Positions 19,984 to 42,200 of a stretch of 43,355 bases of DNA are shown here, one piece after another. Location: contig CAMWUR010000013.1 of NCBI GenBank assembly GCA_947177485.1, positions 1 to 43,355 on the forward strand, written 5' to 3'. This DNA is from an uncultured Helicobacter sp. (lineage in GTDB: Bacteria; Campylobacterota; Campylobacteria; Campylobacterales; Helicobacteraceae). Position numbers and translations under genes: made by a program. Every line of letters starts with the position of its first letter. Position 1 is the stretch's first letter. The notes beneath the pieces are model-generated. The model searched no databases. It was not told where the DNA came from and worked only from the letters and a program-made list of their open reading frames with translations.

Positions 19984-21105
19984 ATGAAAAATCACACCAC
20001 CAATCGCCGCGAGTTTTTGAAAGTTGCGGCAATACTAGGGGCAAGTTTGAGTTTAGGTGCTTCGCCACTTTTGGCAGCAGATTCTAAAAAGCAAATCATG
20101 CCAATGCGCACTTTGGGTAAAGGCGACTATGCCTTTGAGGTTTCTGCTCTTGCATTTGGACTGATGGGCTTGAATTATCACCGCAGCAAGGTGTTGAGCG
20201 AAAAAGAAGCAGCAGAGATTGTTGCAAAATGTGTGGATTATGGAATCATACTTTTTGACACAGCACAAGTTTATGGACCAGATAGTAATGAAATCTTGAC
20301 AGGCAAGATTCTAAAGCCCTATAAAGACAAGGTTTTTGTAACAACAAAATTTGGGTTTGGGGCAAATGCTGATATTTTGGATTCCTCACCAAAACGTATC
20401 CGAGAAGTTTGCGAACAGAGCCTAAAAAGGCTCAATATCGAGCAGATTCCGCTTTTTTATCAACATCGTTTCGACCCCCAAACACCGATTGAAGAAGTTG
20501 CGGGAACGGTCAAAGATTTGATAAAAGAAGGCAAAGTCGCTCGGTTTGGTGTATGCGAATTAAGCGCAGCAACGATAGAAAAGGCGCACAAAATCTGCCC
20601 GATTACAGCTGTGCAGAGTGAGTATCATTTGATGTGGCGCAATGTTGAAATAGAACTTTTCCCAACATTAGAAAAGCTTGGAATCGGCTTTGTGGCATAT
20701 TCACCTTTGGCACGAGGATATTTAAGTGGAAAGTTACGAAAAAATAGCGATTTTGACCCAAAAAATGATAATCGCGCAACCTTTCCACGTTACCAAGATG
20801 ACACAATGGCAGCAAATTATAAGATTGTCGAACTTCTAAGAGAATTTGGTAAAGGCAAAAATCCTTCCGCTCAAAATGGCAATGCAACCCCTGCTCAAAT
20901 GGCAATTTCCTATCTTTTAGCGAAAAAGCCCTATGTCGTGCCACTTTTTGGCACGACAAATCTAACACATTTAAGTGAAAACATTGAATCATTGCAGGTT
21001 CAATGGCACAAAAAAGAGCTGAAAAATTTTGAAGCAGAGCTTGCAAAAATACAGATTCTTGGCGACCGCTACCCACCAGAGCAGGCAAAGCGCGTGGGGC
21101 GATAG
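19984..21105 (+). CDS. Aldo/keto reductase with Tat leader (second)
   Basis: The 373-residue protein begins with NRREFLKVA and a hydrophobic stretch ending LLAADS, a clear Tat signal. The catalytic residues are in LFDTAQVYGP, TTKFGF and YQHRFD. It is a diverged paralogue of the preceding gene (shared layout from leader to C-terminus). Unlike that gene, no ribosome site lies between leader and barrel, so only the exported form is expected. CAAGGAGAAACA precedes the ATG. It is the last gene of the redox run before the type I restriction locus. Confidence 0.9.
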   Translation: MKNHTTNRREFLKVAAILGASLSLGASPLLAADSKKQIMPMRTLGKGDYAFEVSALAFGLMGLNYHRSKVLSEKEAAEIVAKCVDYGIILFDTAQVYGPDSNEILTGKILKPYKDKVFVTTKFGFGANADILDSSPKRIREVCEQSLKRLNIEQIPLFYQHRFDPQTPIEEVAGTVKDLIKEGKVARFGVCELSAATIEKAHKICPITAVQSEYHLMWRNVEIELFPTLEKLGIGFVAYSPLARGYLSGKLRKNSDFDPKNDNRATFPRYQDDTMAANYKIVELLREFGKGKNPSAQNGNATPAQMAISYLLAKKPYVVPLFGTTNLTHLSENIESLQVQWHKKELKNFEAELAKIQILGDRYPPEQAKRVGR

Positions 21106-21200
21106 CCAGATTTACAAACTTGAACTTGCTTTTGTGGCAAAAATATGCTATCATAATAACGCAATCTATGGGAAATGCCCAAACGCATGATGATGAGTTT

Positions 21201-21219
21201 CCAAGCCCCTATGGCTTGG
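21201..21219. other. Hairpin upstream of hsdM
   Basis: CCAAGCC and GGCTTGG pair around a five-base loop in the 176-base gap between the reductase and hsdM. No T-run follows, so it is not a standard terminator. It may sit in the hsdM leader. Confidence 0.35.
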
Positions 21220-21281
21220 ACACTCTCTGTCATTATGTGGCATAAAGGCTTAGTATCATAAAATAGACATAAGGGCAAGAT

Positions 21282-22919
21282 GTGGCAACACAGCCAAAAC
21301 TCGAATCGACTCTGTTTGTCGCCGCCGACAAACTCCGCAAAAACATTGACGCCGCCGAGTATAAGCATATCGTTTTGGGCTTAGTTTTCTTAAAATACAT
21401 CTCCGATAGCTTCCAAGCTATTTTTGAAAGAGTACAAAATGATGGCGGAGACACAGAGGACAAAGACGAATACCTCGCACACAATGCGTTTTTTGTGCCC
21501 CCAAAGGCGCGGTGGGGTTACATTATGGAAAACGCCAAACAAAGCAATATCGGTAGCCTTTTAGATGTTGCAATGCAAACCATAGAACAGGAAAATCCAA
21601 GCCTAAAGGGCGTTTTACCCAAAGTCTATGCCAAAGAAAATTTAGATTCCATTTGCTTAGGCGGGTTGATTGACTTACTCTCTAATCTCTCTTTAAGCGG
21701 AGAAGGAGGAGGCAAGACAGCCCAAAGCAGTGATATTTTAGGGCATATTTTTGAATATTTCTTAGGCGAGTTTGCGCTAAGCGAGGGCAAAAAAGGTGGG
21801 CAGTTTTACACCCCAAAAAGTGTTGTAGAGCTTTTAATCACAATGCTAGAGCCTTACAAGGGGCGCGTGTTTGACCCTTGTTGTGGCAGCGGGGGAATGT
21901 TTGTGCAAAGCGAAGCTTTTGTGCAAAGTCATCAAGGCAAGATTGACGACATCTCAATTTATGGACAAGAGAGCAACCAAACGACTTGGCGACTTGCAAA
22001 GATGAATCTAGCGATTCGACAAATCGATTCTTCGCAAGTCAAATGGAATAGCGAGGGGAGTTTTTTAAATGACGCGCATAAAGATTTAAAGGCGGACTTT
22101 GTGATTGCCAACCCGCCTTTTAACGATTCTGATTATAGCGGCGAGCAACTCGCAAACGATGGACGTTGGAAGTTTGGAATCCCGCCAACGACAAACGCAA
22201 ACTATGCGTGGATTCAGCATTTCCTCTATCATCTCGCGCCAAAGGGCGTTGCCGGGTTCGTGCTTGCCAAAGGCTCGCTAACGAGCAACACGGGCGGTGA
22301 GGGCGCAATCCGCAAAAACTTGATAGAATCCAATCTAATCGATTGCATTATCAATCTCCCCGCCAAACTTTTCTTAAATACGCAAATCCCCGCTTGCCTG
22401 TGGTTTATTCGCCGTTCTAAGACAAACCAAGAAATCCTTTTCATAGACGCGCGCAATTGTGGCGAGCTGATTAATCGTAAAAATCGTATCTTAACTCATG
22501 AGGATATACAAAAGATAAGCCAAACTTACCACGCGTGGAGAAAAGCGCAGAATCCACAAGATGGAGATTCTAAAAATCCAGTTTCCCATACTGACTCTCC
22601 CCTTTGTCATTCTGAGGCTTTAGCCGAAGAATCCCAACCTATAAAATCCAAGCAAGATTCTAAAAGTTTAGAATCTCTCCCACCTTATGCCGACATCAAG
22701 GGCTTTTGCAAATCCGCTTCCCTGCAAGAAGTCGCCGCGCTTGGCTATACGCTGACACCGGGCAGGTTTGTGGGCCTAGAAGAAAACGAGCAAAACTTCG
22801 ACTTTGAGAGTGAATTTACGCGTCTAAGAGCAGAGCTAGAAACTCAAATCAAAGAGGAACAAGAGCTCAACCAAAGGATTTTGGCAAATCTTGCACTAAT
22901 AGGTGGAGAAAAACAATAA
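21282..22919 (+). CDS. hsdM: Type I restriction-modification methylase subunit
   Basis: HsdM pairs with HsdS to methylate adenine in the split recognition site and with HsdR to form the nuclease. It starts at GTG with AAGG upstream (545 residues). The N-terminal helical domain holds TLFVAADKLR and VFLKYISD. The methylase core has FDPCCGSGGMF (SAM binding) and the catalytic NPPF. A repeat-derived peptide (CHSEALAEES, 22605-22634) sits at about residue 442, between the catalytic core and the C-terminal HsdS-binding region. HsdS and HsdR follow only after several inserted genes. Confidence 0.95.
   Translation: MATQPKLESTLFVAADKLRKNIDAAEYKHIVLGLVFLKYISDSFQAIFERVQNDGGDTEDKDEYLAHNAFFVPPKARWGYIMENAKQSNIGSLLDVAMQTIEQENPSLKGVLPKVYAKENLDSICLGGLIDLLSNLSLSGEGGGKTAQSSDILGHIFEYFLGEFALSEGKKGGQFYTPKSVVELLITMLEPYKGRVFDPCCGSGGMFVQSEAFVQSHQGKIDDISIYGQESNQTTWRLAKMNLAIRQIDSSQVKWNSEGSFLNDAHKDLKADFVIANPPFNDSDYSGEQLANDGRWKFGIPPTTNANYAWIQHFLYHLAPKGVAGFVLAKGSLTSNTGGEGAIRKNLIESNLIDCIINLPAKLFLNTQIPACLWFIRRSKTNQEILFIDARNCGELINRKNRILTHEDIQKISQTYHAWRKAQNPQDGDSKNPVSHTDSPLCHSEALAEESQPIKSKQDSKSLESLPPYADIKGFCKSASLQEVAALGYTLTPGRFVGLEENEQNFDFESEFTRLRAELETQIKEEQELNQRILANLALIGGEKQ
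22605..22634 (+). repeat. TGTCATTCTGA-family repeat inside hsdM
   Basis: This is a left-half copy: TGTCATTCTGA, the hairpin GGCTTTAGCC and then GAAGAATC. It is read in frame as CHSEALAEES within HsdM. Confidence 0.75.
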
Positions 22920-22929
22920 AGGAGACACA

Positions 22930-23208
22930 ATGACATCAAATATCAAATTCAAAATGGACAGCAATGACAAAGAAGTGCTCGAGGCAATGCTTAAGGATAT
23001 GGGACTAGATTTAGGCACAGCGTTTAGAATGTTTGCATACAAGGTGCTTAAAACAGGCGAGATTCCCTTTAGTATAAGCAGCAGCATTGAGCCAGACACG
23101 ATAGAGACGCCAGAAAATTATAAGGCATGGAAAAAGGCACGCAAAGAGCTCGAGAGGGGCGAGACCATAAGCCTAGAAGAGCTAAAAAGGAAATATGCTG
23201 ATGTATAA
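22930..23208 (+). CDS. DinJ/RelB-type antitoxin
   Basis: The 92-residue protein starts at an ATG with AAAGGAGA upstream. The N-terminus (NIKFKMDSNDKEVLEAML) has the strand-helix pattern of ribbon-helix-helix DinJ antitoxins, and GLDLGTAFRMFAYKVL is their typical second helix. It should neutralise the toxin encoded by the next, overlapping gene and repress the pair. It sits 10 bases after hsdM, as part of the material inserted into the type I locus. Confidence 0.82.
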   Translation: MTSNIKFKMDSNDKEVLEAMLKDMGLDLGTAFRMFAYKVLKTGEIPFSISSSIEPDTIETPENYKAWKKARKELERGETISLEELKRKYADV

Positions 23209-23458
23209 GATTCAAACGAGCAAAATTGTGGATAACTTTCTTGCGAAACATAGCGATATAAGGCAAAGGGTGCTTGATAAATTGGAAATTCTAGCACAAA
23301 ATCCCTATAAAAATACCCTTGATATTCAAAAACTTCAAGGTAGGGATAACCGTTATCGCCTGCGAGTAGGCAAGTATAGAATCCTGTATGAAATCATAGA
23401 GAATCAAATCCTTATCTATGCTTATGATGCGGATTCTCGTGGAGGCATCTACAAATGA
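23195..23458 (+). CDS. RelE/ParE-superfamily toxin
   Basis: The 87-residue protein overlaps the antitoxin gene by 14 bases. YKIQTSKIVDNFL, LQGRDNRYRLRVGKYRILYEI and a C-terminal YAYDADSRG match RelE-like mRNA interferases; the Arg-rich GKYRILYE strand is typical. A second ATG at 23201 is equally possible, since the AAAAAGG site lies 4 and 10 bases from the two. Cleavage of mRNA on the ribosome is known for the family and inferred here. Confidence 0.82.
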   Translation: MLMYKIQTSKIVDNFLAKHSDIRQRVLDKLEILAQNPYKNTLDIQKLQGRDNRYRLRVGKYRILYEIIENQILIYAYDADSRGGIYK

Positions 23459-23474
23459 CAAACAAGGAGACAAA

Positions 23475-23714
23475 ATGACTTTAATACTTGAGAATGTAAA
23501 AGAGGAGTTTGTGCCGACCATTAAGGCACTTAGCAAAGCTATCAATGCCAAATGCAAAATCGAAAAACCAAAAGCAACAAAACTTGAAAAAGAGCTTTTG
23601 TTACAATTGCAAGAAATAGAAGAGAAGCGCAAAAAAGGCACACTAAAAACCTACACAAGCGCAAAAGAAATGCATGCGGAACTATTCAATACATATAGTG
23701 AGTTACGCAGATGA
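23475..23714 (+). CDS. Small antitoxin-like protein (first of two)
   Basis: The 79-residue protein starts at an ATG with AAGGAGA upstream. MTLILENVKEEFVPTIKALSKAINAKCKI has the same pattern as the start of the protein at 28343, so the two are paralogues. Size, charge and the position between a RelE-type toxin and a HEPN/MNT-type pair suggest a RelB-like antitoxin. No matching toxin follows directly. The stop overlaps the next gene start by four bases. Confidence 0.5.
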   Translation: MTLILENVKEEFVPTIKALSKAINAKCKIEKPKATKLEKELLLQLQEIEEKRKKGTLKTYTSAKEMHAELFNTYSELRR

Positions 23715-24099
23715 CAAACACACGATTGAAGCAAAGATTTGCATTTTTTCAAAGAGCCTTTTTGAATCTCAATGAAGTCAAGGAGCAAGAAAATCGAGCT
23801 TTTTCAAACCTCGAAAAAGAGGGCATTATCCAAAGATTTAAGGTGCTCATAGAACTTTGTTGGAAAATGCTCAAAGATTTCCTAGAAAACGAGGGCTTTA
23901 TGGTTAAAAGCCCAAAAGAAAGCGTCCGCAAGGCTTTTGAATATGGACTCTTAAAAAATTGCTAGAGGCACTAGACATGCGAAATATCACAAGCCATACC
24001 TACACACAAAGCGCGCTTGATGAGAATGTGCGCTATATTTTAGAGGATTTTTATCCGCTCGTGCGGGATTTATACGATACCCTTAAGGCTCGCCTATGA
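23711..24099 (+). pseudogene. HEPN-type nucleotidyltransferase partner (HI0074 family), frameshifted
   Basis: The first frame gives 84 residues (ending YGLLKNC) and stops at 23965. The other frame continues with the missing family C-terminus: LLEALDMRNITSHTY and then DFYPLVRDLYDTLKARL, ending at 24099. RNxTSHTY is the conserved HEPN Rx4-6H-type motif. Adding one A to the six-A tract near 23947 would restore a full protein of about 129 residues. The downstream nucleotidyltransferase start overlaps the restored stop, as in intact pairs. The break may be a true mutation, a phase switch or a sequencing slip. Confidence 0.75.
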
Positions 24100-25241
24100 A
24101 TTGCGGACTTTCAAAAAGGCATTTGATGACAATCCAAGAGATTCTAACGCCACATCAGGCAATCACGCATGCCATTTTGTTTGGCTCACGCGCAAGAGGG
24201 ACATTCAAACCAACGAGCGATGTGGATATTACCCTAAAAGGCGACATTGACATTAGGCTCATTGCCAAAATCAAAGCAGAATTTGAGGATTCTAACCTCC
24301 CTTTTTTCGTGGATATTGTGGATTATGCTAAGGCAGATAATGCACTTAAAAGCGAGATTGATGCGCAGGGTGTTTTGCTTTATGTAAAAGATATTTCGCA
24401 TTTTTCAAATACCCGTGCAATCCGCAAGGATTTCACCCTCATTAGCAAAGATGACAAAAGTTCTCCTTGTCATTCTGAGCGAAGCGAAGAATCTAATAGA
24501 GATATTTCGCTTGTTTCACAAGCTCAATATGACAAAGCTAGCTTAACTTGTCATTCTGACCTTGAGTGCAACGAAAGGGAAGAATCTCAATACATTCCTA
24601 TCGCCTTGACCCAAAATCAAATCGCATTTTCGAAATATCCAGCCTTTATTTATATGGTGAGCAACAAAAACAACACAACCCTTTATATCGGCGTTACAAG
24701 CAATTTACAAAAACGCATTTATGAACATAAAAATCATTTAACAAAAGGCTTTAGTGATAAATATAATTGTGAAAAACTTGTATATTTTGAAAGCTTTGAT
24801 AACATTAATCAAGCCATTGAGAGAGAAAAATATCTTAAGGGCAAAAAGCGAGAATTTAAGGAGAATCTTATTCACTCAATTAATCCAAAATGGCTTGACT
24901 TATATGATTATTTGTTTAGAGATACTTCAGCTTTGCTTCAGTATGACAATACCCCTTGTCATTCTGAACCTGCTTTAGCAGGTGAAGAATCTAATCCCTC
25001 TTGTGATACTAAGCCTTTAGGCGAAGTATCTTACAAATCCAACAGAGATATTTCGCATTTTTCAAATGCTCAATATGACAAAATGACCTCAACTCGTCAT
25101 TCTGAGGCTTTAGCCGAAGAATCTCAAAAATCCGATTGTCATTCTAAAACCCCATCTTGTCATTCTGAGCGAAGCGAAGAATCTAATAGAGATATTTCGC
25201 TTGTTTCACAAGCTCAATATGACAACAAAGGCAGAAAATGA
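24096..25241 (+). CDS. MNT nucleotidyltransferase domain fused to a GIY-YIG nuclease domain through repeat-encoded linkers
   Basis: The 381-residue frame has four parts. Residues 15-98 are a minimal nucleotidyltransferase with FGSRARG, the DVD metal pair and a third acidic strand (FFVDIVDY); such proteins pair with HEPN partners as toxin-antitoxin systems, and some AMPylate the partner. Residues 99-170 are repeat-derived (CHSERSEESNRDIS). Residues 184-270 are a GIY-YIG nuclease (FIYMVSN, LYIGVTSNLQKRIYEH, IEREKYLKG). Residues 285-381 are again repeats. Normal MNT proteins end near residue 98, so a repeat seems to have removed the stop and joined two genes. An ATG at 24126 is an alternative start. 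Confidence 0.75.
   Translation: MNCGLSKRHLMTIQEILTPHQAITHAILFGSRARGTFKPTSDVDITLKGDIDIRLIAKIKAEFEDSNLPFFVDIVDYAKADNALKSEIDAQGVLLYVKDISHFSNTRAIRKDFTLISKDDKSSPCHSERSEESNRDISLVSQAQYDKASLTCHSDLECNEREESQYIPIALTQNQIAFSKYPAFIYMVSNKNNTTLYIGVTSNLQKRIYEHKNHLTKGFSDKYNCEKLVYFESFDNINQAIEREKYLKGKKREFKENLIHSINPKWLDLYDYLFRDTSALLQYDNTPCHSEPALAGEESNPSCDTKPLGEVSYKSNRDISHFSNAQYDKMTSTRHSEALAEESQKSDCHSKTPSCHSERSEESNRDISLVSQAQYDNKGRK
24468..24534 (+). repeat. Full copy of the 67-bp TGTCATTCTGA repeat (copy A)
   Basis: The element runs from TGTCATTCTGAG to CTCAATATGACA. Its ends are imperfect inverted repeats, and it contains GAAGAATC, GATATTTCGC and an inner TTGTTTCACAAG hairpin. It is identical over all 67 bases to copy B at 25158-25224. 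Confidence 0.85.
24549..24590 (+). repeat. Left half of a TGTCATTCTGA repeat
   Basis: TGTCATTCTGACCTTGAGT and then GAAGAATCTC. It has a different inner hairpin from copies A and B and is read in frame as CHSDLECNEREES. Confidence 0.6.
24919..25080 (+). repeat. Composite of TGTCATTCTGA-family repeat parts
   Basis: A right-half piece ending CAGTATGACAA is followed at 24957 by a left half with the hairpin CCTGCTTTAGCAGG. A TGTGATACT/GAAGTATC variant comes next, and then a right half ending CTCAATATGACA. The reading frame stays open throughout. Confidence 0.65.
25097..25224 (+). repeat. TGTCATTCTGA repeats including full copy B
   Basis: A left half with hairpin GGCTTTAGCC is followed by a short TGTCATTCTAAA piece and then the full 67-bp copy B (25158-25224). 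Copy B is identical to copy A some 690 bases upstream, which suggests recent duplication or gene conversion. Confidence 0.75.
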
Positions 25242-25270
25242 ATAAAAACATTATAGCCAAAGGGGCGACA

Positions 25271-26701
25271 ATGGGCATAACAACGCACAGCCACAAAGAA
25301 CACGCGACTGCAATTGTGCCATTTCATTCTCATTTCTTTGAATCGCTTCATAAAGAGCAATGGCAAGAGGTCAGGTTGGGGGAAGTGGCGGAGATAAAAA
25401 CAGATATTTGGAAAGTAGGAGGAGAACAACAGAAACAATATATAGGGCTTGAACACATTGCAGCAGATTCTTTAAGATTGTGCGGCATCGGAAATTCTAA
25501 TGAAATTAGCAGTAACAAATATATTTTTAAAGAAAATGATATTCTTTTTGGGAAATTGAGACCTTATTTTAGAAAAATTATTAAAGCTAAATTTAAAGGT
25601 ATTTGTTCCACTGATATTTGGGTTATTAGAGCAAAACAAAATATAGACCAAACATTTTTATTTTATTTTTTTGCGAATAAAACTTTGATAAATTTGTCAT
25701 ATTCTAGTTCTAAGGGAACAAGAATGCCCCGAGCAGATTGGAATTTTCTATCACAAACAACTTGGTTACTCCCGCCCCTCGAGACACAGCGTAAAATCGC
25801 GGAGATTCTAAGTAGTTTGGACGATAAGATAGATTTGCTTCATCGCCAAAACAAAACCCTAGAATCCCTCGCCCTCACTCTCTTTCGCCATACCTTTATA
25901 GACAATCCCAAAAATCCCAATGCCCCTTGTCATGCTGGGCAAGCTTGCAATTGTCATTCTGAACCTGCTTTAGCAGGTGAAGAATCTATTGATATAAAAT
26001 CGCATAGAGATATTTCGGCTTTGCCTCAATATGACAAAGAAAAGTTTCTAGTTGTAGAAAAAAACACACCTCCAAATAATGAGCAACATAACCGAGGCGC
26101 GACTTCAGTCGCACATAATGAACATTGGGAAATAGGAAAATTGGGGGATTATGGAAAAATAATTTGTGGTAAAACCCCAACAAAAATTCAAAAAGAATAT
26201 TTTAATGGCAAAATACCATTTATTAAAATTCCTGATATGCACAATAAAACTTTCGTTTTTAAAACAGCTGATACTCTTACACAGAAAGGTTTTTCGTCTC
26301 AACACACAAAAACATTGCCACCTTTAAGTATTTGCGTAAGCTGCATTGCTACCGTTGGCGTAGTTTCTATGAATGCTTTAGAATCTCAAACAAATCAACA
26401 AATAAATTCTATTGTTCCACACAAAGAATATTTTAGATATTTTTTATACTGCTTTATGAAAGAATCTTTTGATGAATTGCAAGCTATGGCAAGTGGCGGA
26501 ACAGCAACAGCTAATCTGAATACAACAGATTTCTCAAATATGGCAATTCTAAAACCTACTGATAAAGAATTGCAAGATTTTCATTCTTGCGTAAAGATTT
26601 ATTTTGATAAAATCTACAATAATGCTAAGCAGATTCAGAATCTGCAATCAATGCGGGATATGCTCTTAGCAAAAATTCTAAATGAAAAAATGGAGGTGTG
26701 A
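25271..26701 (+). CDS. hsdS: Type I restriction-modification specificity subunit
   Basis: HsdS sets the DNA target of the type I complex. I chose ATG 25271 (476 residues), since AAAGGGG lies just upstream; ATG 25238 is possible. The first target-recognition domain spans about residues 28-175, followed by LPPLETQRKIAEILSSLDDKI, the conserved helical spacer. The second recognition domain covers about 290-440, with the end helix LLAKILNEKMEV. The linker (residues 220-283) is made of two different dispersed repeats, giving CHSEPALAGEES and then NRGATSVAHNE. The second domain is AT-rich. The stop precedes the reverse transcriptase start by five bases. Confidence 0.92.
   Translation: MGITTHSHKEHATAIVPFHSHFFESLHKEQWQEVRLGEVAEIKTDIWKVGGEQQKQYIGLEHIAADSLRLCGIGNSNEISSNKYIFKENDILFGKLRPYFRKIIKAKFKGICSTDIWVIRAKQNIDQTFLFYFFANKTLINLSYSSSKGTRMPRADWNFLSQTTWLLPPLETQRKIAEILSSLDDKIDLLHRQNKTLESLALTLFRHTFIDNPKNPNAPCHAGQACNCHSEPALAGEESIDIKSHRDISALPQYDKEKFLVVEKNTPPNNEQHNRGATSVAHNEHWEIGKLGDYGKIICGKTPTKIQKEYFNGKIPFIKIPDMHNKTFVFKTADTLTQKGFSSQHTKTLPPLSICVSCIATVGVVSMNALESQTNQQINSIVPHKEYFRYFLYCFMKESFDELQAMASGGTATANLNTTDFSNMAILKPTDKELQDFHSCVKIYFDKIYNNAKQIQNLQSMRDMLLAKILNEKMEV
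25928..26036 (+). repeat. TGTCATTCTGA-family repeats in the hsdS linker
   Basis: A short TGTCATGCTGG variant is followed at 25952 by a full-length copy with hairpin CCTGCTTTAGCAGG and right end CTCAATATGACA. They are read in frame between the two recognition domains of HsdS. Confidence 0.75.
26093..26114 (+). repeat. REP palindrome in the hsdS linker
   Basis: CGAG followed by GCGCGACT and AGTCGCAC. It differs at three positions from the GGAG-headed REP copies near the RAYT gene. A half copy (CACCTCC) lies about 20 bases upstream in opposite orientation. It is read in frame as RGATSVAH. Confidence 0.65.
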
Positions 26702-26706
26702 AAATT

Positions 26707-28329
26707 ATGCAAAAAAGCATCTTAAAACTTGATGCGAAAAAAGCTAGAGAATTTTTTCTGGAAGAAGAAAGTTATTGTAATTTTGACTTACCACCTTACA
26801 TAAAATTTAGTGCTTTACTCAATGCAATAAATAATAAGATTGAAGCTGGACATCATGAAATTAATAAGATTTACTCAAGCTCAAAGAAGCCTCAAGATTG
26901 CGAAAATGTAAATTATAAGCTATTTAATAACAAGAATGCTAAGTATGATTGGCGTCCTTTTGAATTGATACACCCTGTATTATATGTTTATCTCGTTAGA
27001 GAAATTACAGAAGAGAAAAATTGGGAATATATTCAAAAAAAATTTAGGACACTTAGAGAGGGCGATTATGTGAAATGTTTTAGTATTCCTGTTGTATCAG
27101 AAACAAATCAATCAAACAAAGCAGAACAAGTTTTGCAATGGTGGAATCGTATTGAACAAGATTCGATAAAATATAGTTTGGAATTTGATTATTTATTCCA
27201 TACAGATATAACAAATTTTTATCCGTCTATCTATACGCATTCTATTGCTTGGGCTTTACATACTAAAAAAATGGCTAAAGAAAATAAAAACGACAAGCTC
27301 TTATTGCTGGGCAATACAATTGATAAATATGTCATGCAAATGTCCTATGGGCAAACAAATGGAATCCCTCAAGGTTCAGTTTTAATGGATTTTATAGCAG
27401 AGATTATTTTAGCTTATGTTGATAAGCAATTAACAGAAAAAATAAGAAAGCAAAAAATTGAATCTAAAAATTTTAAGATTATAAGATATAGAGATGATTA
27501 TAGAATTTTTGTCAATAACCCACAAAATGCAGAAATTATCTTAAAGAATTTATCAGAAATTCTTGCAGAGACAGGTTTAAAGCTCAACCCAAGCAAAACG
27601 ATTGCTTCACAAAATGTTATTCAAAGCTCTATTAAAAAAGATAAATTAAGGTGGCTTTTTATAGAGCCAATTTTAAAGGAACAAAGCACCTTACAAAAAC
27701 AACTTTTGATTTTGCACCAATTCTCTTTAGAATATGAAAATAGTGGAACACTTACTAAAGCTTTAGACAAATTATTAAAGGATTTAAATTATAAAATATC
27801 AAATGTTCAAGATAACAATAAAAAATATCAATCTTTATTTAAAATGAATTTAAGCAAAGAAAATAAAGAAGTTTTGGTTGCTATTTTAATAAATATAGTT
27901 TCATTAAACCCAAGAGTTTATCCGCATATAATGGCTATTTTAGGGATTTTATTTAGTAAGATAAATAAAAAAACATCTATCAACAAATCAATACAGAAAC
28001 TTGAAGGGATTTATAATAATTCGTATATGCAAATTTGGTTACAGAGGGCTATTATTAAACAAAAAATTGATTATAAAAATTTTACCGAACCTATTTGTCA
28101 AAAAGTTGCTAGTATTTTTGCGGGAGAAAAATGTGAAACATCATTATGGAATAATGAATGGTTATCTTGTAGTGATATTAAAAATATCTTTAAAAAATAT
28201 CCTATAATATTGAAAAAAGAAATAGATAAGCTAGCACCAAATACACAAAGTCAAGAAATTACTTTATTTGATTATGACAATCCTTTCAAAGACGAATCGA
28301 GTTCTATAATTAGACAAGTTAAATCATAG
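26707..28329 (+). CDS. Reverse transcriptase of the Abi/unknown-group (defence) type
   Basis: The 540-residue protein starts at ATG 26707, ten bases after GGAGG. Polymerase motifs are clear: motif A HTDITNFYPSIYTHSI (Asp167), motif B GQTNGIPQGS (about 215-224) and motif C RYRDDYRIF with Asp263-Asp264. There is no maturase domain, no CRISPR Cas1 link and no sign of a retron RNA, so it is not an obvious group II intron, diversity-generating or retron enzyme. The C-terminal 210 residues are helical, as in Abi and DRT phage-defence enzymes. It lies directly behind hsdS inside a type I locus. The exact DRT/UG group cannot be assigned by eye. Confidence 0.85.
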   Translation: MQKSILKLDAKKAREFFLEEESYCNFDLPPYIKFSALLNAINNKIEAGHHEINKIYSSSKKPQDCENVNYKLFNNKNAKYDWRPFELIHPVLYVYLVREITEEKNWEYIQKKFRTLREGDYVKCFSIPVVSETNQSNKAEQVLQWWNRIEQDSIKYSLEFDYLFHTDITNFYPSIYTHSIAWALHTKKMAKENKNDKLLLLGNTIDKYVMQMSYGQTNGIPQGSVLMDFIAEIILAYVDKQLTEKIRKQKIESKNFKIIRYRDDYRIFVNNPQNAEIILKNLSEILAETGLKLNPSKTIASQNVIQSSIKKDKLRWLFIEPILKEQSTLQKQLLILHQFSLEYENSGTLTKALDKLLKDLNYKISNVQDNNKKYQSLFKMNLSKENKEVLVAILINIVSLNPRVYPHIMAILGILFSKINKKTSINKSIQKLEGIYNNSYMQIWLQRAIIKQKIDYKNFTEPICQKVASIFAGEKCETSLWNNEWLSCSDIKNIFKKYPIILKKEIDKLAPNTQSQEITLFDYDNPFKDESSSIIRQVKS

Positions 28330-28342
28330 CAAGAAGCAAACA

Positions 28343-28555
28343 ATGACACTTATTATCAAAAATGCTAATAAAGACTTTGCAGAGGCGGTCAGGAGTATGG
28401 CAAAAGCTTGTGATTCTATGATAAAAATCACGGAGCAAAAAGAGCCCAGCGATGAGCTTTTGGAAGCCATTAGAGAAGTGCGAAATGGAGAAGTAGAGCG
28501 ATATGAAAACTTTGAGGATTTCAAAAAGGCGATGCTAGATGAAGTATTGCATTAG
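28343..28555 (+). CDS. Small antitoxin-like protein (second of two)
   Basis: The 70-residue protein starts MTLIIKNANKDFAEAVRSMA and resembles the 79-residue protein at 23475 over its first 30 residues. It ends in an acidic helix (YENFEDFKKAMLDEVL), typical of RelB-like antitoxins. No toxin gene follows. It begins 13 bases after the reverse transcriptase stop with only a weak ribosome site. It could be an orphan left by loss of its toxin. Confidence 0.5.
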   Translation: MTLIIKNANKDFAEAVRSMAKACDSMIKITEQKEPSDELLEAIREVRNGEVERYENFEDFKKAMLDEVLH

Positions 28556-28579
28556 CTTTTGGGACAGAACATGGGCTTT

Positions 28580-28664
28580 GTGCGAATCAATTCGCACCTC
28601 CGATGTTGGGGAATTGTGTATTTTCTATATTCCCTAGCTTTTGGAGGTGCGACTTTAGTCGCAC
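28580..28664. repeat. REPIN: two inverted REP palindromes
   Basis: The left REP (28580-28601) reads on the minus strand as GGAG plus GTGCGAAT and ATTCGCAC. The right REP (28643-28664) reads on the plus strand as GGAG plus GTGCGACT and AGTCGCAC. The facing CACCTCC and GGAGGTG can pair to form one long hairpin. The rest of the 28556-28847 gap holds no gene that I can support. Confidence 0.75.
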
Positions 28665-28812
28665 TCAAACGAGATGGCAATAACGAAAGGAAAAGGGAAC
28701 TATTGAAAAATCCTTTGCAGGACAAATATAAAAATAATCGATATAATCGAGTAAAGATATAAAAAAACATGGTGCAAGAAATATTGAAAACGATTAATGA
28801 GGTAAATCATAA

Positions 28813-28834
28813 GTGCGACTAAAGTCGCACCTCC
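28813..28834 (-). repeat. REP palindrome upstream of the RAYT gene
   Basis: On the minus strand this is GGAG plus GTGCGACT, two T and AGTCGCAC. It is identical over 22 bases to the copy at 28643. It lies 14 bases before the transposase start. Confidence 0.8.
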
Positions 28835-28847
28835 AAAAAGGTAGGCA

Positions 28848-29375
28848 ATGGAATTGGTGATTCAAAAATATACTAACCTCCCGCATATTGACCACGTGGG
28901 ATATTGGCAGTTTGTTACTATACGCACGCAAGATTCTATTGATGAAGCATTTCTCTCTATCGCTGATGAGGATATTTCAAAGGAGCAATTCAAAAAAGAT
29001 GAATATGCGGATTTATCGCTTAAGGGAAATTATTTGAACGGAGAGATTCTCCAATATCTTTATGAGTTTTTGCTATCGCTCGATTCTATTTTATATGAGC
29101 TCGCTTGTTTTTGCATTATGCCTAATCATTTGCATATTCTCTTTAGACAAAAAGAATCCCTTGCCTTGATTATCAAAAAACTTAAGGGCATTAGCGCAAA
29201 AGCTATCAATAAGCAATTAGGTTTTAAAGGGAAATTTTGGGAGAAAGGATATTATGATAAAGCCATACGCAACCAAAAACATTTTGAACTAACTTATCGT
29301 TATATTGCCCATAATGCTTTAAAAGTTGGGCTAAAAAGTGAAGAGAGATTTTATGGGAAATATGATTTATTGTAA
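28848..29375 (+). CDS. REP-associated tyrosine transposase (RAYT)
   Basis: The 175-residue protein belongs to the Y1/HUH transposase group related to IS200/IS605. The HUH motif is MPNHLHILF (His-Leu-His). The catalytic Tyr lies in the C-terminal FWEKGYYDKAIRN region, followed by YRYIAHNALKVGL. RAYTs are domesticated enzymes that mobilise REP/REPIN elements. Here REP palindromes flank the gene at 28813-28834 and 29390-29415 and also occur in the gap upstream and in hsdS. AAGG precedes the ATG. Confidence 0.9.
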   Translation: MELVIQKYTNLPHIDHVGYWQFVTIRTQDSIDEAFLSIADEDISKEQFKKDEYADLSLKGNYLNGEILQYLYEFLLSLDSILYELACFCIMPNHLHILFRQKESLALIIKKLKGISAKAINKQLGFKGKFWEKGYYDKAIRNQKHFELTYRYIAHNALKVGLKSEERFYGKYDLL

Positions 29376-29389
29376 TCATCGACTATATC

Positions 29390-29415
29390 GGAAGTGCGAC
29401 TAAAGTCACACTTCC
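29390..29415 (+). repeat. REP palindrome downstream of the RAYT gene
   Basis: GGAAGTGCGACT, two A and AGTCACACTTCC form a nearly perfect 26-base palindrome. It ends 29 bases before the hsdR start. With the copy at 28813 it brackets the transposase. Confidence 0.75.
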
Positions 29416-29444
29416 AGAATCACCACGCAACGAAAGGACGCAAC

Positions 29445-32400
29445 ATGCAAACCGATAGCCTCAACGAAAAAGCCATAGAATCCCTGCTCCTCGAGCATTT
29501 GGCAAATGCGGGATACACTTGCAAAAGTGGCAAGGAAATCGAGCGTAAAAGCGGGGAGTGGATACTCGAGAATGAATTTAGAGAATCGGTGTGGCAGATT
29601 AACTTTGGGGCAGATTCTAGGCATTCGTGCAATCTTGCCCTAAGCATAGAATCTCAAGAGCGGCTTATTAGCGAGGCATTGCAAAAGCTCAAAGCCCTTG
29701 AAAACGAGGAGCTTATGGAGGCAAATGCCAAATGTCATGCTTATCTCACGCATGGAATCCCGCTTGAAGTGTTTTTCGAGGGCGAGACGCGCGGCGTTCT
29801 CTTGCGCCTCGTGGATTTTGAAAATCCCTCTAACAACTCCTTGCTTGCGTGCAATCAGCTCCATTTTGCCGCGCCGATGCCCAAACGTCCCGATGTCGTG
29901 CTGTTTCTCAATGGCTTGCCTGTGGTCGTGTGTGAGCTCAAAAATCCGCTCGATGTCAATGCGACTTTGGAAAGTGCGTTTCAACAGATTCAAACTTACA
30001 AGGCGCAGATTCCCTTTTTGTTTATCCCTAATGTGCTTTGTATGCTAAGTGATGGGCTAAATCACAAAATTGGGAGCTTAAGTGCGGACATTGCGCGGTT
30101 TATGGTCTGGAGAAACGAGAAGCAAGCCCTACCCTTAGGAATGTCTGCTGCGTTAGAGCCGCGCACACTCTTAGAGATTCTACGTTTTTTTATCGTGTTT
30201 GAGAAGCAAACTTTTAACGACAAATCGGGCTTATCTAGCACGCGGATTATTAAGAAACTCGCCGCCTATCATCAATATTATGCTGTGCAAAAGGCAATAG
30301 AATCTGTGAAAGTCGCGATGTGTGGGGACAAAAGAGGCGGGGTGATGTGGCACACGCAAGGAAGTGGCAAAAGTCTCACGATGGTGTTTTTTAGCGCAAA
30401 GGCGATTGCGACTTTTGGAAACCCTACTTTGCTTGTTATTACCGATAGAAACGACCTTGATGAGCAATTGTTTGAGACTTTCGCAAAGGCAAAGGAACTT
30501 TTGCGCACAGAACCAACTCTCGCAACAAGCACACAGGATTTAAAAACCAAACTCAAAAGGGCAAGTGGGGGCATTATTTTTAGCACGATTCAGAAGTTTA
30601 GGAGTGAAAATGAAAGCTTCGAGCTTTTAAGTCAAAGAGAAAATATCCTCGTTTTATGCGATGAGGCACATCGAAGTCAATATGGATTCGAGGCGAGGCT
30701 TGATGAGCAGGCGCAGCTGCGCTATGGCTATGCAAAATATTTGCGAGACGCGCTGCCAAATGCGACTTATCTTGGTTTTAGTGGCACGCCGATTGAAAAA
30801 GCAGACGCCGACACGCGGCGCGTGTTTGGAGAATATATTGATATTTATGATATTGCTAGGGCGGTCGAGGATAAAGCCACGGTAGGAATCTATTATGAAA
30901 GTCGGTTGGTCAAAATTGGGCTTAGTGAGGAGGGACAAGAGATTTTAAAAGAACTCGATTCTAAGCTTGTTGCGAGCGAGGAACAAGACAGAATCAATGC
31001 TAAAGCTACGAGGCTATGCGAGATTGTCGGGGCGAAAAATCGGCTTGAAGTCGTGGCAAAAGACATTGTGGAACATTTTAGCAAAAGGCAAGAGGCGTTA
31101 AAGGGCAAGGCGATGATTGTTTGTATGAGCCGAGAAATTGCCGTTTCTTTGTATGATATAATCGTAAATCTTATGCCCTCGTGGCATAGTGAAGACTATC
31201 AAAAAGGCGCGTTAAAGGTGATTATGACGGCAAATAGTAGCGATGGTGCGCATTTAGCCAAACACCATACGAGCAAGACACAAAGAAGCGAAATCGCCAA
31301 AAGACTTAAAAGCGTTGATGATGAACTGCAAATGGTTATCGTGTGCGATATGTGGCTTACCGGCTTTGATGTGCCGCCTCTGCATACGCTTTATATGGAT
31401 AAATTCTTAAGTGGGCATAATCTTATGCAAGCTATTGCGAGGGTAAATCGTGTGTATAAAGATAAGCCTGCGGGGCTAGTCGTGGATTATCTAGGAATTG
31501 CCAATGAGTTAAAAAACGCACTAGAATTTTATACCCAAAGCGGAGGCAAGGGAGCGTTTATACAAGAAAAGACAAAAATCATAGAAAAAATGCAAGAAAA
31601 CTATGAAATTACCGCCCAAATGCTGCAAGGGATTAATTATTTGGAATATTTTACGCTACAAGCGCGAGAGAAGCTTCAGCTTATCGCCCAAGTTTTAGAA
31701 TGTATCCTAGCCCAAGAAAATGGCAAAAAGCGGTTTTTGGATAATGCAACGAGGCTTTTAAAATCCTATGTAATGGCTCTACCTTGCGAGGAAGCGGAGA
31801 AAATCGCAAAAGATGTAGCGTTTTTTGACCTCATCAAAAGAACTTTGAAAAAATACGAAAGAGAGGAGGAGGGAAAATCTCTTGTGCCGCAAAGTGCGAT
31901 TAAACAAATCATTAATGATGCGATTGTGAGCGAGGGAGTGGTGAATATTTTGGATAGCACAGGGATTGTAAAGCCCAATCTCTCTATCCTTTCAGAGGAG
32001 TTTTTAAGCGAGCTTGCCTCCCATAAGCACAAAAACCTTGCCTTGCAGACTTTACAAAAGCTTTTAAACGATGAATTAAGTGCGCGTCTTAGCTCCACAC
32101 TCTCTGCAAAAAGCTTGATAGAACGACTGCAAAAGACAATGCAAAAATATCAAAATAACCTTATTAGCGTGGTTGAAGCCATAGAGGAGCTCATCGCCCT
32201 AAGCAAAGAACTCATTGCGAGTGATACGCAAAGAAAGGAAATGGGATTAAAAGATTACGAGTTTGCCTTTTATGAGGCGATTGCTCAAAACAAAAGTGCA
32301 AAAGAAGTGATGAGTAAGAGTGAGCTAAAGGCACTTGCCATAGCGATTTTTCAAACTCTAAGGCAAAATGTCAGCTTAGATTGGCAGCACAAAGAATCTG

Positions 32401-32534
32401 TGAGAGCGAAGCTAAGAGTAGCGGTTAAAAGAGTGCTTAAAGAATATGGCTATCCGCCAGATATGCAAAAAATCGCGGTGGATAGAGTCATAGAACAAGC
32501 CGAGCTTGTGGCAAAAGATTTGACAGCCTTATAA
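29445..32534 (+). CDS. hsdR: Type I restriction endonuclease subunit (translocase/nuclease)
   Basis: HsdR cleaves unmodified DNA after ATP-driven translocation. ATG 29445 has AAAGGA upstream and gives 1029 residues; the longer frame from 29394 would start inside a REP. The N-terminal nuclease has PDVVLFLNG and CELKNP. The motor has Walker A TQGSGKS, the DEAH box LCDEAHRSQYG, SGTPIEKAD and the late MQAIARVNRVYKDK. The C-terminal region is helical. All parts look intact. It is separated from hsdS by about 2.7 kb of reverse transcriptase, antitoxin and RAYT genes. Confidence 0.96.
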   Translation: MQTDSLNEKAIESLLLEHLANAGYTCKSGKEIERKSGEWILENEFRESVWQINFGADSRHSCNLALSIESQERLISEALQKLKALENEELMEANAKCHAYLTHGIPLEVFFEGETRGVLLRLVDFENPSNNSLLACNQLHFAAPMPKRPDVVLFLNGLPVVVCELKNPLDVNATLESAFQQIQTYKAQIPFLFIPNVLCMLSDGLNHKIGSLSADIARFMVWRNEKQALPLGMSAALEPRTLLEILRFFIVFEKQTFNDKSGLSSTRIIKKLAAYHQYYAVQKAIESVKVAMCGDKRGGVMWHTQGSGKSLTMVFFSAKAIATFGNPTLLVITDRNDLDEQLFETFAKAKELLRTEPTLATSTQDLKTKLKRASGGIIFSTIQKFRSENESFELLSQRENILVLCDEAHRSQYGFEARLDEQAQLRYGYAKYLRDALPNATYLGFSGTPIEKADADTRRVFGEYIDIYDIARAVEDKATVGIYYESRLVKIGLSEEGQEILKELDSKLVASEEQDRINAKATRLCEIVGAKNRLEVVAKDIVEHFSKRQEALKGKAMIVCMSREIAVSLYDIIVNLMPSWHSEDYQKGALKVIMTANSSDGAHLAKHHTSKTQRSEIAKRLKSVDDELQMVIVCDMWLTGFDVPPLHTLYMDKFLSGHNLMQAIARVNRVYKDKPAGLVVDYLGIANELKNALEFYTQSGGKGAFIQEKTKIIEKMQENYEITAQMLQGINYLEYFTLQAREKLQLIAQVLECILAQENGKKRFLDNATRLLKSYVMALPCEEAEKIAKDVAFFDLIKRTLKKYEREEEGKSLVPQSAIKQIINDAIVSEGVVNILDSTGIVKPNLSILSEEFLSELASHKHKNLALQTLQKLLNDELSARLSSTLSAKSLIERLQKTMQKYQNNLISVVEAIEELIALSKELIASDTQRKEMGLKDYEFAFYEAIAQNKSAKEVMSKSELKALAIAIFQTLRQNVSLDWQHKESVRAKLRVAVKRVLKEYGYPPDMQKIAVDRVIEQAELVAKDLTAL

Positions 32535-32556
32535 TTGAACACACAAGGAGACAAAT

Positions 32557-33204
32557 ATGAAACATGGAATGACGCCCAATCCAAATAATCCCTTTCCAAT
32601 TAAGGGCGTGGATTATGTCTGCTATGTCAAGCCCATCATAAAGAATCCAAATGTTATCGTGGGGGACTTTACATACATTAGCGATAGTGATTTTGAGCGG
32701 CATATCAGCCACCATTACGCATTTAATGGAGACAAACTTATTATCGGCAAATTTTGTCAAATCGCTGCGGGTGTGGAGTTTATTATGAATGGCGCAAATC
32801 ATCAGATGAATGCCGTAAGTACCTTTCCTTTTTATATCTTTGAGGGTTGGGATATGGAAGCGCCCTCGCCTAGCGATTTGCCCTTAAGAGGCGATACAAT
32901 CATTGGTAATGATGTTTGGATTGGTCAAAATGCAACGATACTTCCGGGCGTTCAAATCGGCGATGGCGCGATTATTGGTGCAAATAGTGTCGTGGGTGGC
33001 AATGTTGCGCCTTATGCAATTGTGGTTGGAAATCCTGCGAGAATGATTAAAAAGAGATTTGATGATGAGCTGATTTCGCTATTGCTGCGGCTTAAGTGGT
33101 GGGACAAAAGTATTGACACAATCAATTCTTTGATTCCGATTCTCACAAATAGCAATCTCGATTTTGTCAGAGAAGAGATTCGCAAACTCGTGGAAAAATC
33201 GTAA
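32557..33204 (+). CDS. Xenobiotic O-acetyltransferase, Vat/CatB type
   Basis: The 215-residue protein has the left-handed beta-helix hexapeptide repeats ([32 protein letters not shown] is the pattern region). ITRA-like NGANHQMN contains the candidate catalytic His, and the C-terminal helix starts after [12 protein letters not shown]. The family acetylates streptogramin A or chloramphenicol with acetyl-CoA; the real substrate is not shown. AAGGAGA precedes the ATG. It lies 22 bases after hsdR and faces the aminoglycoside nucleotidyltransferase gene. Confidence 0.82.
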
Positions 33205-33212
33205 TCTTTAAC

Positions 33213-34097
33213 TTATGCATTGCCATTTTGTAAGCGTTTTAGAATCTTGGCGTACGTTTTTGCCCCTGCGCGGTAGGGCAAGCTTGAAAAATCTTGCTTG
33301 AAACGAGAGCGCATTATTTTTTGCGCGATTTTGGCAAAAAACCTTTCAAGATACTTGCGCGTTTTCTTCGCCTGTTTCTTGCCCCCAAGCCGATAGCAGG
33401 CATAGAGTTTTTGTATCTCTTTTGGCGCAAGGAATCGGGGCAAGAATTTATGTTCTTTGCCAAGCGAAAAAGAAAAATTATTTTGTTTTATTGCCACATA
33501 CCACGAAAGCAGAATCAAGAGCCCCTCTCTCATCATCGCAAGATGTGCATTGGCAAGCAAAACTTCGGAACGCAAAATATCCTTTAGGGTACAAACATAC
33601 AACCAATAAAATTCATTGCAACAATCTAAAAAACTCTGTTTGCTTAAGGGCTTGATATAAAAAGCGCAATCGCTTGCGGGAAGTACGCTATCAAACCGAT
33701 GGTCTTTATCAAGTAAAACGTGCATGAGACGTTCATTATTTTTATAAAACTCTGCGTCTTCAAGCGGAATGAGCGTTAAATCTATCCGCACGCCATCATC
33801 AAAAAGCATGAGATAACTAAACCAACCCTCTTTTAAATCTGGTGGGTAGAGCTCCATTGATTCTGGTTTTTGAATCATCAATAGATTGCCAAAGACTTTT
33901 AGCCATTCATCGTTTGTATCATCTTTAAAATTCTGCAAACTTTGCTTGTCTAAGAAAAACGAAATATCATAATCGCAAAATATATCTTTTTTGATATTCG
34001 GATTTGCCCTTGAGCCTTCAAGTGTTACAAGACGAATCGATTCATTATTCTTCGCAAAATCTAGGATTAGACTAAAAACTTCTTGTTCTGTGCGCAT
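33213..34097 (-). CDS. Aminoglycoside 6-adenylyltransferase-like protein
   Basis: The 294-residue protein has the streptomycin adenylyltransferase layout. The nucleotidyltransferase core is LEGSRAN followed by CDYDISFF (the Asp pair) and VRIDLTLIP. The length matches AadE/ANT(6) proteins (about 285-300). Family members inactivate streptomycin with ATP. Activity in this organism is inferred, not shown. GGGGA precedes the ATG. It is encoded convergently with the acetyltransferase. Confidence 0.85.
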   Translation of the reverse strand: MRTEQEVFSLILDFAKNNESIRLVTLEGSRANPNIKKDIFCDYDISFFLDKQSLQNFKDDTNDEWLKVFGNLLMIQKPESMELYPPDLKEGWFSYLMLFDDGVRIDLTLIPLEDAEFYKNNERLMHVLLDKDHRFDSVLPASDCAFYIKPLSKQSFLDCCNEFYWLYVCTLKDILRSEVLLANAHLAMMREGLLILLSWYVAIKQNNFSFSLGKEHKFLPRFLAPKEIQKLYACYRLGGKKQAKKTRKYLERFFAKIAQKIMRSRFKQDFSSLPYRAGAKTYAKILKRLQNGNA

Positions 34098-39164: not shown

Positions 39165-39282
39165 CGTCAAAGAGTGTCGCTTTTATTGGAGGAATAGACG
39201 CAAGCAGCAACATGCGCAACGCTATGTTTAAGCGCCCTTAAAGCGTGTGTGTGATAGAATGCGGCAAAAAGCGGGAGGAACC

Positions 39283-42200
39283 ATGCGCTATTGCCATATT
39301 GCATTGCAAGATTTTGTGCAAAGCTTCAGCCCGCTTTCTCCCCCGCAAGGCGAGCTCAAGGAGTTTGGGCAGAGGCTAGAATCATATATGGCAAGCATTG
39401 CGGATTCTAAGAGTGAATCAGAGGAGCACCAAAAGAATCGTTTGCGCGATTTTTTGAGCCAAACTTTTGGTTATGATTGCAATACGAGAGATAGAATCGA
39501 CTTAGCAATCTATGACGATTCGAAGCCCAAAGTGCTTTTTGAAGTCAAAAAGAGCAGCAATGTGCACGAGTTTGTGAAGCCCGATGCGCAAAACCTCGAA
39601 TCTAAAGCATTTTATGAATCCATTCTCTACTTTTTGCGCGAAACTCTTACAAATGGCAACAATAACGTGACGCATATTGTTTTGACAAACACAGAGGATT
39701 TCTATCTGATAGACGCAAAAGTTTATGCGCCTTTTGCTAAAGACAAGGCGATTCTCAAGGCTTTTAAAAATTGCGAGCACAAAGAAGGCAATGACGCAAG
39801 CACGCAAAGATTCTATGAGGAGCTTAAGTATCTCTTGCCCAATCTTGATATGGAGTTAAAATACACGCATTTTCGGCTTAAGGATTCTATGCTTGCAAAC
39901 CTTGCAAATTATCATTCTGAATCGCTTTGTCATTCTGAACCTGCGTTAGCAGGTGAAGAATCCCAATCATGCACAATCCAAAAAAGAGATGTTTCGGCTT
40001 TGCCTCAACATAACAGGATAAAACCACCCAGCAAAAGAGACGTTTCACTTTCTACAAACGCTCAATATGATAACCTAGCTTGTCATTCTAAAGCTTCAGC
40101 TGAAGAATCTCATCATATCCTCCCGCTCCTCTACCAAGTCTTAAGCCCCCAAGTGCTACTCAAGCGCAAGACCTATCTTGACGCCAACACTCTAAACCAA
40201 GATTTCTATAATGAATTGCTCTATATTTTGGGGCTCAAAGAAAGCTCACAGAATGGCAAAGTGCTCATTCTGCCGAGCCAAACGCAAAATACATTCCTTG
40301 ATTCTATATGCTCCACATTTGGGCTCGAGAGAGACAAAGACTTTGAGACTCTCTTTTCTTTGCTGACCACGTGGAACAACCGCCTATTATTCTTGCGTCT
40401 CTTAGAATCGATGCTACTAAGTTTCAAGCATATCGAAAAACCATTCCTAGATTTAGAATGCTTAAAAGACTTCCAAACCCTCAATACCCTATTCTTTGAT
40501 ATTTTGGCAAAGATAGAGGAGAATCGGGACGCAAATCTTCCCAAAGTTTTAGCACAGATTCCCTATCTCAACTCGAGCCTTTTTGAAAAAACAGCACTTG
40601 AGATTGAGGGCAAAGAAATCAAGCTACTTGAATCCAAGCCCCTAACACTCTATCACGATTCCATTCTCTACAAAGACAAAAACTTTTGCAATTCTCTCAA
40701 TCTCAATGCCCAAACCAAAGATTCCACCTTGCCGCTTTTAGAATATCTCTTTGCATTTTTACATGCCTATGACTTCACAACCACAGCACAAGATATTCAA
40801 AACCATACAAAAATCAATTTTGACAAACTCATTAACTCCGCCGTGCTAGGGCTCGTCTTTGAAAAGCTCAATGGCTATAAAGAGGGCAGCTTCTATACGC
40901 CAAGCTTTATCACGCGCTATATGTGTAAGCAGAGCCTAGAAAGAGTCGTGTTGCAAAAGTTTAACGAACATCAAAATTGGGATTGCCAAAACCTTGAGGA
41001 ACTCAAAAACAGAATCGACAAGCTCACAGATTCTAAAGAGGGCTATAAACAAGCAAATGCAATCTTTGATTCTATCCATATCTGCGACCCAGCTGTGGGC
41101 AGTGGGCATTTCCTTGTCTCTGCACTCAATGAGCTGATTTTACTCAAGTTCAAGCTCGGGATTCTCTGTGATGAAAACAACAACAGAATCAAAGACATCA
41201 CGCTAGAAATCTTACGTGATGAAATCGTGATACGAGATTCCCAAAATGCGCTTTTTACCTACACCCTGCCCGCACATGATAATATCGAATCCCATAAGAT
41301 TCAAAGGGCATTATTCTTTGCCAAGCGCAAACTCATCGAATCCTGCCTCTTTGGTGTAGATATTAACCCCAACTCATGCGAGATTACAAAGCTTCGCCTT
41401 TGGATTGAGCTGCTCAAATATAGCTATTATAAAGACATTCCAAACAAAAGGCTAGAGACACTGCCCAATATTGATATTAATATCAAGTGTGGGAATAGCC
41501 TCATCTCTCGCTTTAATCTTAGCGATTCACTGCGCACGATTCCAAATATCAATTTCCAAATTGAGCAATACAAAAAACTTGTTTTTGAATACAAAAATGC
41601 CGACCAAAACTTGATGACAATCTCCAAGAAAGACATTGAAAAACAGATTGAGACAATTCAAGCAACCTTTACTCTAACCCTCAAAGACCCAAAGACAAAA
41701 AGAGAGCTAGAAAAGGCGATAGAATCCCATATCAAACAATTCAACAATTATTTGCTTGATGATGCAAGCTTGCTAGAGGGCTTAAGCTCCTTGCAATTCA
41801 ATCTTTTTGGCACTCCAACTTTGAGCGAGGAAGAGCAAGAGAGGGCATTAGAATCCTATGGCAAAATCCAAGCTTTGCGCAAAAAGCTAACCCTTGCCCT
41901 AAGCGGTGCAGAATACAAAAATGCCTTTGAATGGCGATTTGCATTCCCTGAAGTGCTCGATAGCAATGGAGACTTTCTAGGCTTTGATTTGGTGATAGGC
42001 AATCCGCCATATATTAGAATACAAGGTTTGAATAAACAAATTTCAGAACAATACAAAAAATCCTACCAAGCAGCAACAAAAAATTATGATATTTATGTGT
42101 TATTTGTCGAAATGGGATTAAAAATTGCAAAATCCAATGCGCCCATTAATTTTATTATGCCACATAAATGGCTCAATGCAGATTTTGGAGAAGGGCTAAG

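Follow-up and report, generated by a model that had tools for sequence, protein, structure and literature searches.

A reverse transcriptase assigned to AbiP2 between hsdS and hsdR of a type I restriction operon in an uncultured Helicobacter

Introduction

What is a reverse transcriptase (RT) gene doing inside a type I restriction-modification operon? Is it a part of the restriction system, an additional line of defence that happens to be expressed with it, or merely a traveller? The question is raised by a stretch of 43,355 nucleotides from an uncultured Helicobacter sp. (GCA_947177485.1, contig CAMWUR010000013.1), the whole of which is here called the window. That the space between hsdS and hsdR serves as a site for embedded defences is already published. 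DarTG2 lies there and the site has been termed a potential recombination hotspot (PMC12255303), RloF and TgvAB have a similar position in a type I operon (PMC11411939), and PrrC is embedded in EcoprrI, a type IC operon, with the T4 protein Stp releasing it (PMC3874165, PMC3874168). The family of the RT considered below, and the kind of arrangement in which it is found, are known, and the specialist interest lies in the recurrence of that one family directly behind hsdS.

The operon

The RT gene is an uninterrupted open reading frame of 540 aa (26707-28329, forward strand). Its ATG at 26707 stands 5 nt from the hsdS stop, the spacing noted in an earlier reading of the sequence alone (the sequence-only reading), with GGAGG 10 nt 5' of it, and an alternative in-frame GTG at 26698 gives a 4-nt overlap with that stop. 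The gene order is hsdM, cargo comprising small antitoxin-type and nucleotidyltransferase-type genes (22903-23965 and 24096-25241), hsdS, RT, an ORF of 70 aa, a RAYT gene (REP-associated tyrosine transposase, also between RT and hsdR) and hsdR (Table 1). All three hsd genes appear full-length, and with the same strand, the close spacing from hsdS and hsdR downstream, the placement of an intact RT gene between hsdS and hsdR, and its membership of the hsd operon, stand as originally proposed. The hsdR frame opens at GTG 29394 and, from comparison with relatives, its true start is probably that in the table. A paralogous relationship of the 70-aa ORF to an upstream ORF of 98 aa was considered and dropped, there being no similarity between them.

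Several neighbours deserve mention in their own right. The fusion of an MntA-like nucleotidyltransferase to GIY-YIG is unusual and overlaps hsdS by 4 nt. Directly 3' of hsdR is a Vat-like hexapeptide acetyltransferase gene (32557-33204; best model 278 bits, cut-off 300). A large methyltransferase/specificity-type ORF at 39247-43353, recognized by eye and by a local HsdS profile match, is probably a type IIG enzyme, which would give the window two restriction systems. Comparison of 20000-33500 with plasmids gave no match, and phage-borne copies of the RT are distant only (34-35% identity).

Table 1. Features of the operon and of the element inserted in it (window coordinates)
Feature	Position	Strand	Basis or remark
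hsdM, type I methyltransferase subunit, 545 aa	21282..22919	+	PDB 3khk E=1e-120; EcoR124 M 6e-40; local HsdM family
Cargo: MntA-like nucleotidyltransferase-GIY-YIG fusion	24096..25241	+	Pfam Polbeta and GIY-YIG; NCBIfam MntA under cut-off
hsdS, type I specificity subunit, 487 aa	25238..26701	+	Methylase_S E=1e-39; PADLOC Specificity_I E=6e-68
AbiP2 RT/polymerase (by sequence and predicted fold), 540 aa, alternative GTG 26698	26707..28329	+	Y31 aligned with priming Tyr; D167/D263/D264 active site
70-aa ORF, possibly antitoxin-like	28343..28555	+	No family above cut-off
REP palindrome, 2 mismatches	28580..28597	+
REP palindrome, exact	28647..28664	+
REP palindrome, exact	28813..28830	+	Inverted partner of 28647-28664
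RAYT, 175 aa	28848..29375	+	Pfam Y1_Tnp E=4e-11; NCBIfam REP_Tyr_transpos E=3e-17, 63 bits, cut-off 80
REP palindrome, 1 mismatch	29394..29411	+	3' of RAYT gene, just before likely hsdR start
hsdR, type I restriction subunit (probable start)	29445..32534	+	PADLOC REase_I 1077 bits; TIGR00348; HSDR_N; T1RH-like_C

Family of the polymerase

AbiP2 is best known from P2 prophages of E. coli. The PADLOC profile of that family covers residues 2-524 of the window's RT with 617.8 bits (E=3e-186), well above the runners-up, UG14 with 192 bits and Drt6 with 182 bits. The nearest solved structure is that of E. coli Abi-P2 (PDB 7r08, E=2.9e-82, residues 2-521). An AlphaFold model (pLDDT 86, pTM 0.87) points the same way: in Foldseek the six 7r08 chains head the list (E as low as 5e-30; target-length TM 0.86-0.88), followed by DRT6, DRT4, UG15, AbiK and AbiA, with the ncRNA-bound DRT9 and DRT2 and the DGR, group II and retron enzymes far lower. 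Model and search agree on a bilobal fold with an all-helical C-terminal domain. The motifs DITNFYPSI, GIPQGS and YRDD of an RT palm with its active-site aspartates are where they had been read, the numbering of Asp263 and Asp264 included. Y31 aligns, in the 7r08 alignment, with Tyr61 of Abi-P2, which is required for priming (PMC9508834), and Y31, D167, D263 and D264 are invariant across the 83 rows of the alignment of relatives. NCBIfam, searched with the protein, lists no AbiP2 family; the matches that it gives to Drt4, group II and retron (including St85) models fall far under cut-off, and a retron or group II intron identity is rejected. As judged by sequence and modelled fold, then, the gene encodes an AbiP2 enzyme, a member of a known family and not an unplaced DRT, and the initial impression of a defence-type UG/Abi RT free of maturase, retron or DGR character was sound.

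The gap behind the gene: a REP/RAYT unit

Some DRT enzymes, DRT2 and DRT9 among them, use a non-coding RNA as template or cofactor, and the 292-nt gap at 28556-28847, just 3' of the RT gene, had been picked out as the best candidate for such an RNA. It does fold strongly in comparison with shuffles (z = -5.5). The fold stems from the palindrome GTGCGACTNNAGTCGCAC, present at 28580, 28647 and 28813, with inverted 27-nt arms around the last two (28639-28665/28812-28838) that are 100% complementary. There are 136 sites for this palindrome in the 2.04-Mb genome and none for the reversed-pattern control, and in the gap it stands beside a RAYT gene. An Rfam search gave no match. Nor do relatives leave space for an RNA of this kind: in one (L019) hsdS and RT are 16 nt apart and RT and hsdR 29 nt, which is no room for an adjacent ncRNA, and in five others (L027, L045, L052, L089, L095) RT and hsdR are separated by under about 15 nt or overlap. 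Moreover, the literature describes the class 1 UG enzymes as working untemplated (PMC13174585, PMC12632851), and AbiP2, a protein-primed member of class 1, is reported to act without a nucleic-acid template (PMC9508834, PMC13174585). Because of the mobile unit, the genomic abundance of its palindrome and the cramped loci of relatives, the ncRNA proposal is rejected, and we would give it hardly any credence: what fills the gap is a mobile REP/RAYT unit rather than a cofactor of the RT.

As an insertion between RT and hsdR, the RAYT gene with REP palindromes on both its flanks occupies 28580-29411. A further REP-like palindrome, with 1 mismatch, lies within the hsdS coding sequence (26097-26114).

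Recurrence directly behind hsdS

AbiP2 is present in only 3 of 121 Helicobacteraceae genomes, and in 3 of the 3 it is between hsdS and hsdR. To go beyond the family, a scan of species genomes yielded 340 relatives, the best 80 of which were kept, a sample that is not random and is biased to the closest relatives; hsd genes at their loci were called with profiles grown from those of the window. Among these best 80 of 340, a same-strand hsdS is upstream of the RT gene in 25 of the 74 AbiP2 loci that could be assessed (L092 counted by way of an HsdM-HsdS fusion, and the hsdS of L043 and L079 being fragments), and in 22 of the 25 no ORF of at least 90 aa intervenes. About 12 loci in the same set have a 4-nt stop/start overlap of hsdS and RT, and the hsd-linked loci, again within the best 80 of 340, span 14 phyla, one of them archaeal. 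The linkage, whose absence from relatives had been named, together with the absence of any defence phenotype, as grounds for abandoning the first interpretation, extends to two other Helicobacteraceae and to 13 other phyla. The remaining 49 of the 74 are unlinked, with any hsd match nearby in only 3 of them. That hsd genes are adjacent or else absent, with just these exceptions, argues for a fixed position rather than for loose clustering in defence islands. A survey of UG14 RTs that had been meant as a control gave no match even in the control genomes and is uninformative. The N-terminus of hsd-linked RTs is longer, with a median of 34 versus 22 residues before Y23, but this difference hinges on which start codon is taken as first and on common descent, and it is given no weight.

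Other settings occur too. In one relative (L029:3953-11524) the AbiP2 gene follows genes for a ResIII-type helicase, a 684-aa protein and a HEPN_Apea-like protein, and there the RT is possibly embedded in a type III-like operon.

Changing partners

When mapped on a maximum-likelihood tree of 83 RTs, linkage to hsd takes 14 changes (13 without the uncertain rows), each of them a gain or a loss, and at least 6 are forced by well-supported branches; with shuffled labels the mean is 21.7. The three Helicobacteraceae RTs form one clade (support 100) nested in another (support 98) that otherwise holds only RTs without hsd linkage. This larger clade includes Neisseria and Pasteurellaceae RTs that lie between cas4-like and cas1-like genes, identified by eye, of CRISPR I-C-type loci. 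Distances between RTs follow those between their partners poorly (Mantel r=0.13, p=0.2 with HsdM; 0.29, p=0.04 with HsdR), and HsdM and HsdR keep step at 0.95, though the tests on the RT have little power with inter-locus RT distances near saturation (40-47% identity). The partner HsdRs fall in more than one PADLOC subfamily, L103 being clearly different and L088 and L095 weaker matches. Given the repeated changes of linkage, RTs that do not track HsdM or HsdR, and varied HsdR partners, the AbiP2 gene seems, on these sequence comparisons, to move between operons.

The content of the site varies. In Helicobacteraceae genomes sharing the same HsdR family, the slot between hsdS and hsdR holds, variously, a Drt4-family RT (L131:3377-4993, reverse strand, E=2.8e-201, AbiP2 8e-34), a PrrC/RloC-like AAA_13 protein (PADLOC PDC-S06; L141:3381-5570, forward strand), a Hachiman HamA-HamB pair overlapping hsdS by 4 nt (L125:3161-6279, reverse strand), OLD-like or AriA-like ATPases (L127, L129), an AriAB-like gene with a RhuM-like gene (L139), a Mrr-STAND protein (L126) and a DUF3644 protein (L132). 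Some of these slots hold reverse-strand genes, and two (L133, L138) are without an insert. The 4-nt overlap with hsdS is also shared by the unrelated cargo of L126 and L127.

Guard, passenger or second layer?

Could AbiP2 be held inactive by the type I complex, or sense its state, and be freed when a phage anti-restriction protein disables restriction, the polymerase then serving as a backup? There is a precedent in PrrC, which sits in a type IC operon and is freed by T4 Stp (PMC3874165, PMC3874168), and AbiP2 does land directly behind hsdS repeatedly, often with stop and start overlapping. Yet the invariable linkage to type IC hsd genes that is the hallmark of PrrC (PMC3874168) is not found for AbiP2, 49 of the 74 assessable loci among the best 80 of 340 relatives being unlinked; its HsdR partners come from several subfamilies, RT and Hsd proteins do not co-vary, and unrelated cargo (L125-L127) has the same overlap with hsdS. 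A further consideration is a decayed relative (L024, 6448-12167) in which hsdS is split, hsdM has lost its middle to an internal deletion and hsdR is cut short, and the RT has outlasted this decay intact. A guard of this sort is possible but is not the reading that we favour, and we regard it as unlikely. Much the same doubt attaches to its more explicit form, in which the RT would be coupled to hsdS translation, would reside in or under the type I complex, and would have its untemplated DNA synthesis switched on by loss or inhibition of restriction. If it were true, guarded AbiP2 would amount to the PrrC strategy carried out with an RT, arrived at several times independently.

At the other extreme the RT might be a neutral passenger that arrived together with hsdS through hot-spot recombination and gives no defence in this host. 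A slot that takes very different genes, and the rarity of AbiP2 in the family (the 3 of 121 genomes), are what one would expect of such a passenger; on the other side are the intact ORF, the retention of all key residues, and a dN/dS of 0.18 between the RTs of the window and L024, which indicates purifying selection on the RT. We think neutrality improbable.

The best explanation, to which we give a probability of about three in four, is that the RT is an AbiP2 effector of the usual kind, its gene being modular cargo of the hsd operon and expressed along with it, and that it most likely adds a second, independent defence layer. Judged by its homology to E. coli Abi-P2, whose structure is solved, the enzyme would form a trimer, or possibly a hexamer. 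It would join the first nucleotide to Tyr31, and the site formed by Asp167, Asp263 and Asp264 would then extend a DNA strand of non-templated sequence without an ncRNA. During phage infection this polymerase activity is expected to abort phage production, and a defence function for the embedded RT itself is suggested by the family to which it belongs. Its gene, probably co-transcribed and translationally coupled with hsdS, would have moved into a slot that serves many defence genes, and its product would act independently of restriction. Such independence is favoured because partners are swapped, because relatives unlinked to hsd exist, the orf570 product of E. coli defending against phage T5 (PMC9508834) among them, and because the RT is intact and under purifying selection in the decayed L024 locus. 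Against it may be set the exact and recurrent position behind hsdS, which could mean functional coupling, and the possibility that the hsd genes of L024 decayed only recently. The notion of layered defence that accompanied the sequence-only reading is thus plausible in the sense of co-expression, and in the stronger sense of functional coupling it is not supported by the comparative data.

Comparison with known systems

The window's RT resembles Abi-P2 (orf570 of prophage P2-EC30; 7r08) over residues 2-521, in its RT and helical fold, its priming tyrosine and its active-site aspartates, but the two are only about 31-36% identical and the present gene is in a chromosomal type I operon, not a P2 prophage. 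Like the window's RT, PrrC of EcoprrI is an additional anti-phage effector lodged within a type I operon; PrrC, however, is an ATPase/anticodon nuclease that is always tied to type IC and silenced by the R-M proteins (PMC3874168), whereas AbiP2 is a polymerase that is mostly unlinked to hsd. DarTG2 of the EPEC RRDM island and TgvAB of V. cholerae VPI-2 are likewise defence genes embedded in type I operons (PMC12255303, PMC11411939), though their effector chemistry is other and here an AbiP2 polymerase is directly beside hsdS.

An association of AbiP2-like RTs with CRISPR I-C loci has been reported (PMC8934634), as in Haemophilus haemolyticus. In our set the RT gene has a cas4-like gene ahead of it and a cas1-like gene behind it at three loci (L033, L040, L065), and on the tree these RTs count among the closest non-Campylobacterota relatives. 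The same RT family is thus found in another defence operon, the window's being a restriction operon. The Drt4 of L131, also a class 1-type RT, has the same slot and gene order, but it is of a different RT family, with 39% identity over only 137 aa.

Outlook

In the literature searched, outside of which were the 2024 preprint of Payne et al. on embedded defences and the work of Mestre et al. (2022) on UG/Abi RTs, we found no statement that AbiP2 recurs directly behind hsdS, and that recurrence may in part be known already. One false lead has been removed, the hairpin region being a REP/RAYT element. AbiP2 recurs as a passenger of type I operons across at least 14 phyla, time and again directly behind hsdS, and nature's own pairs of hsd-linked and unlinked AbiP2 offer a way of asking whether embedded defences are simply expressed along with restriction or are controlled by it.
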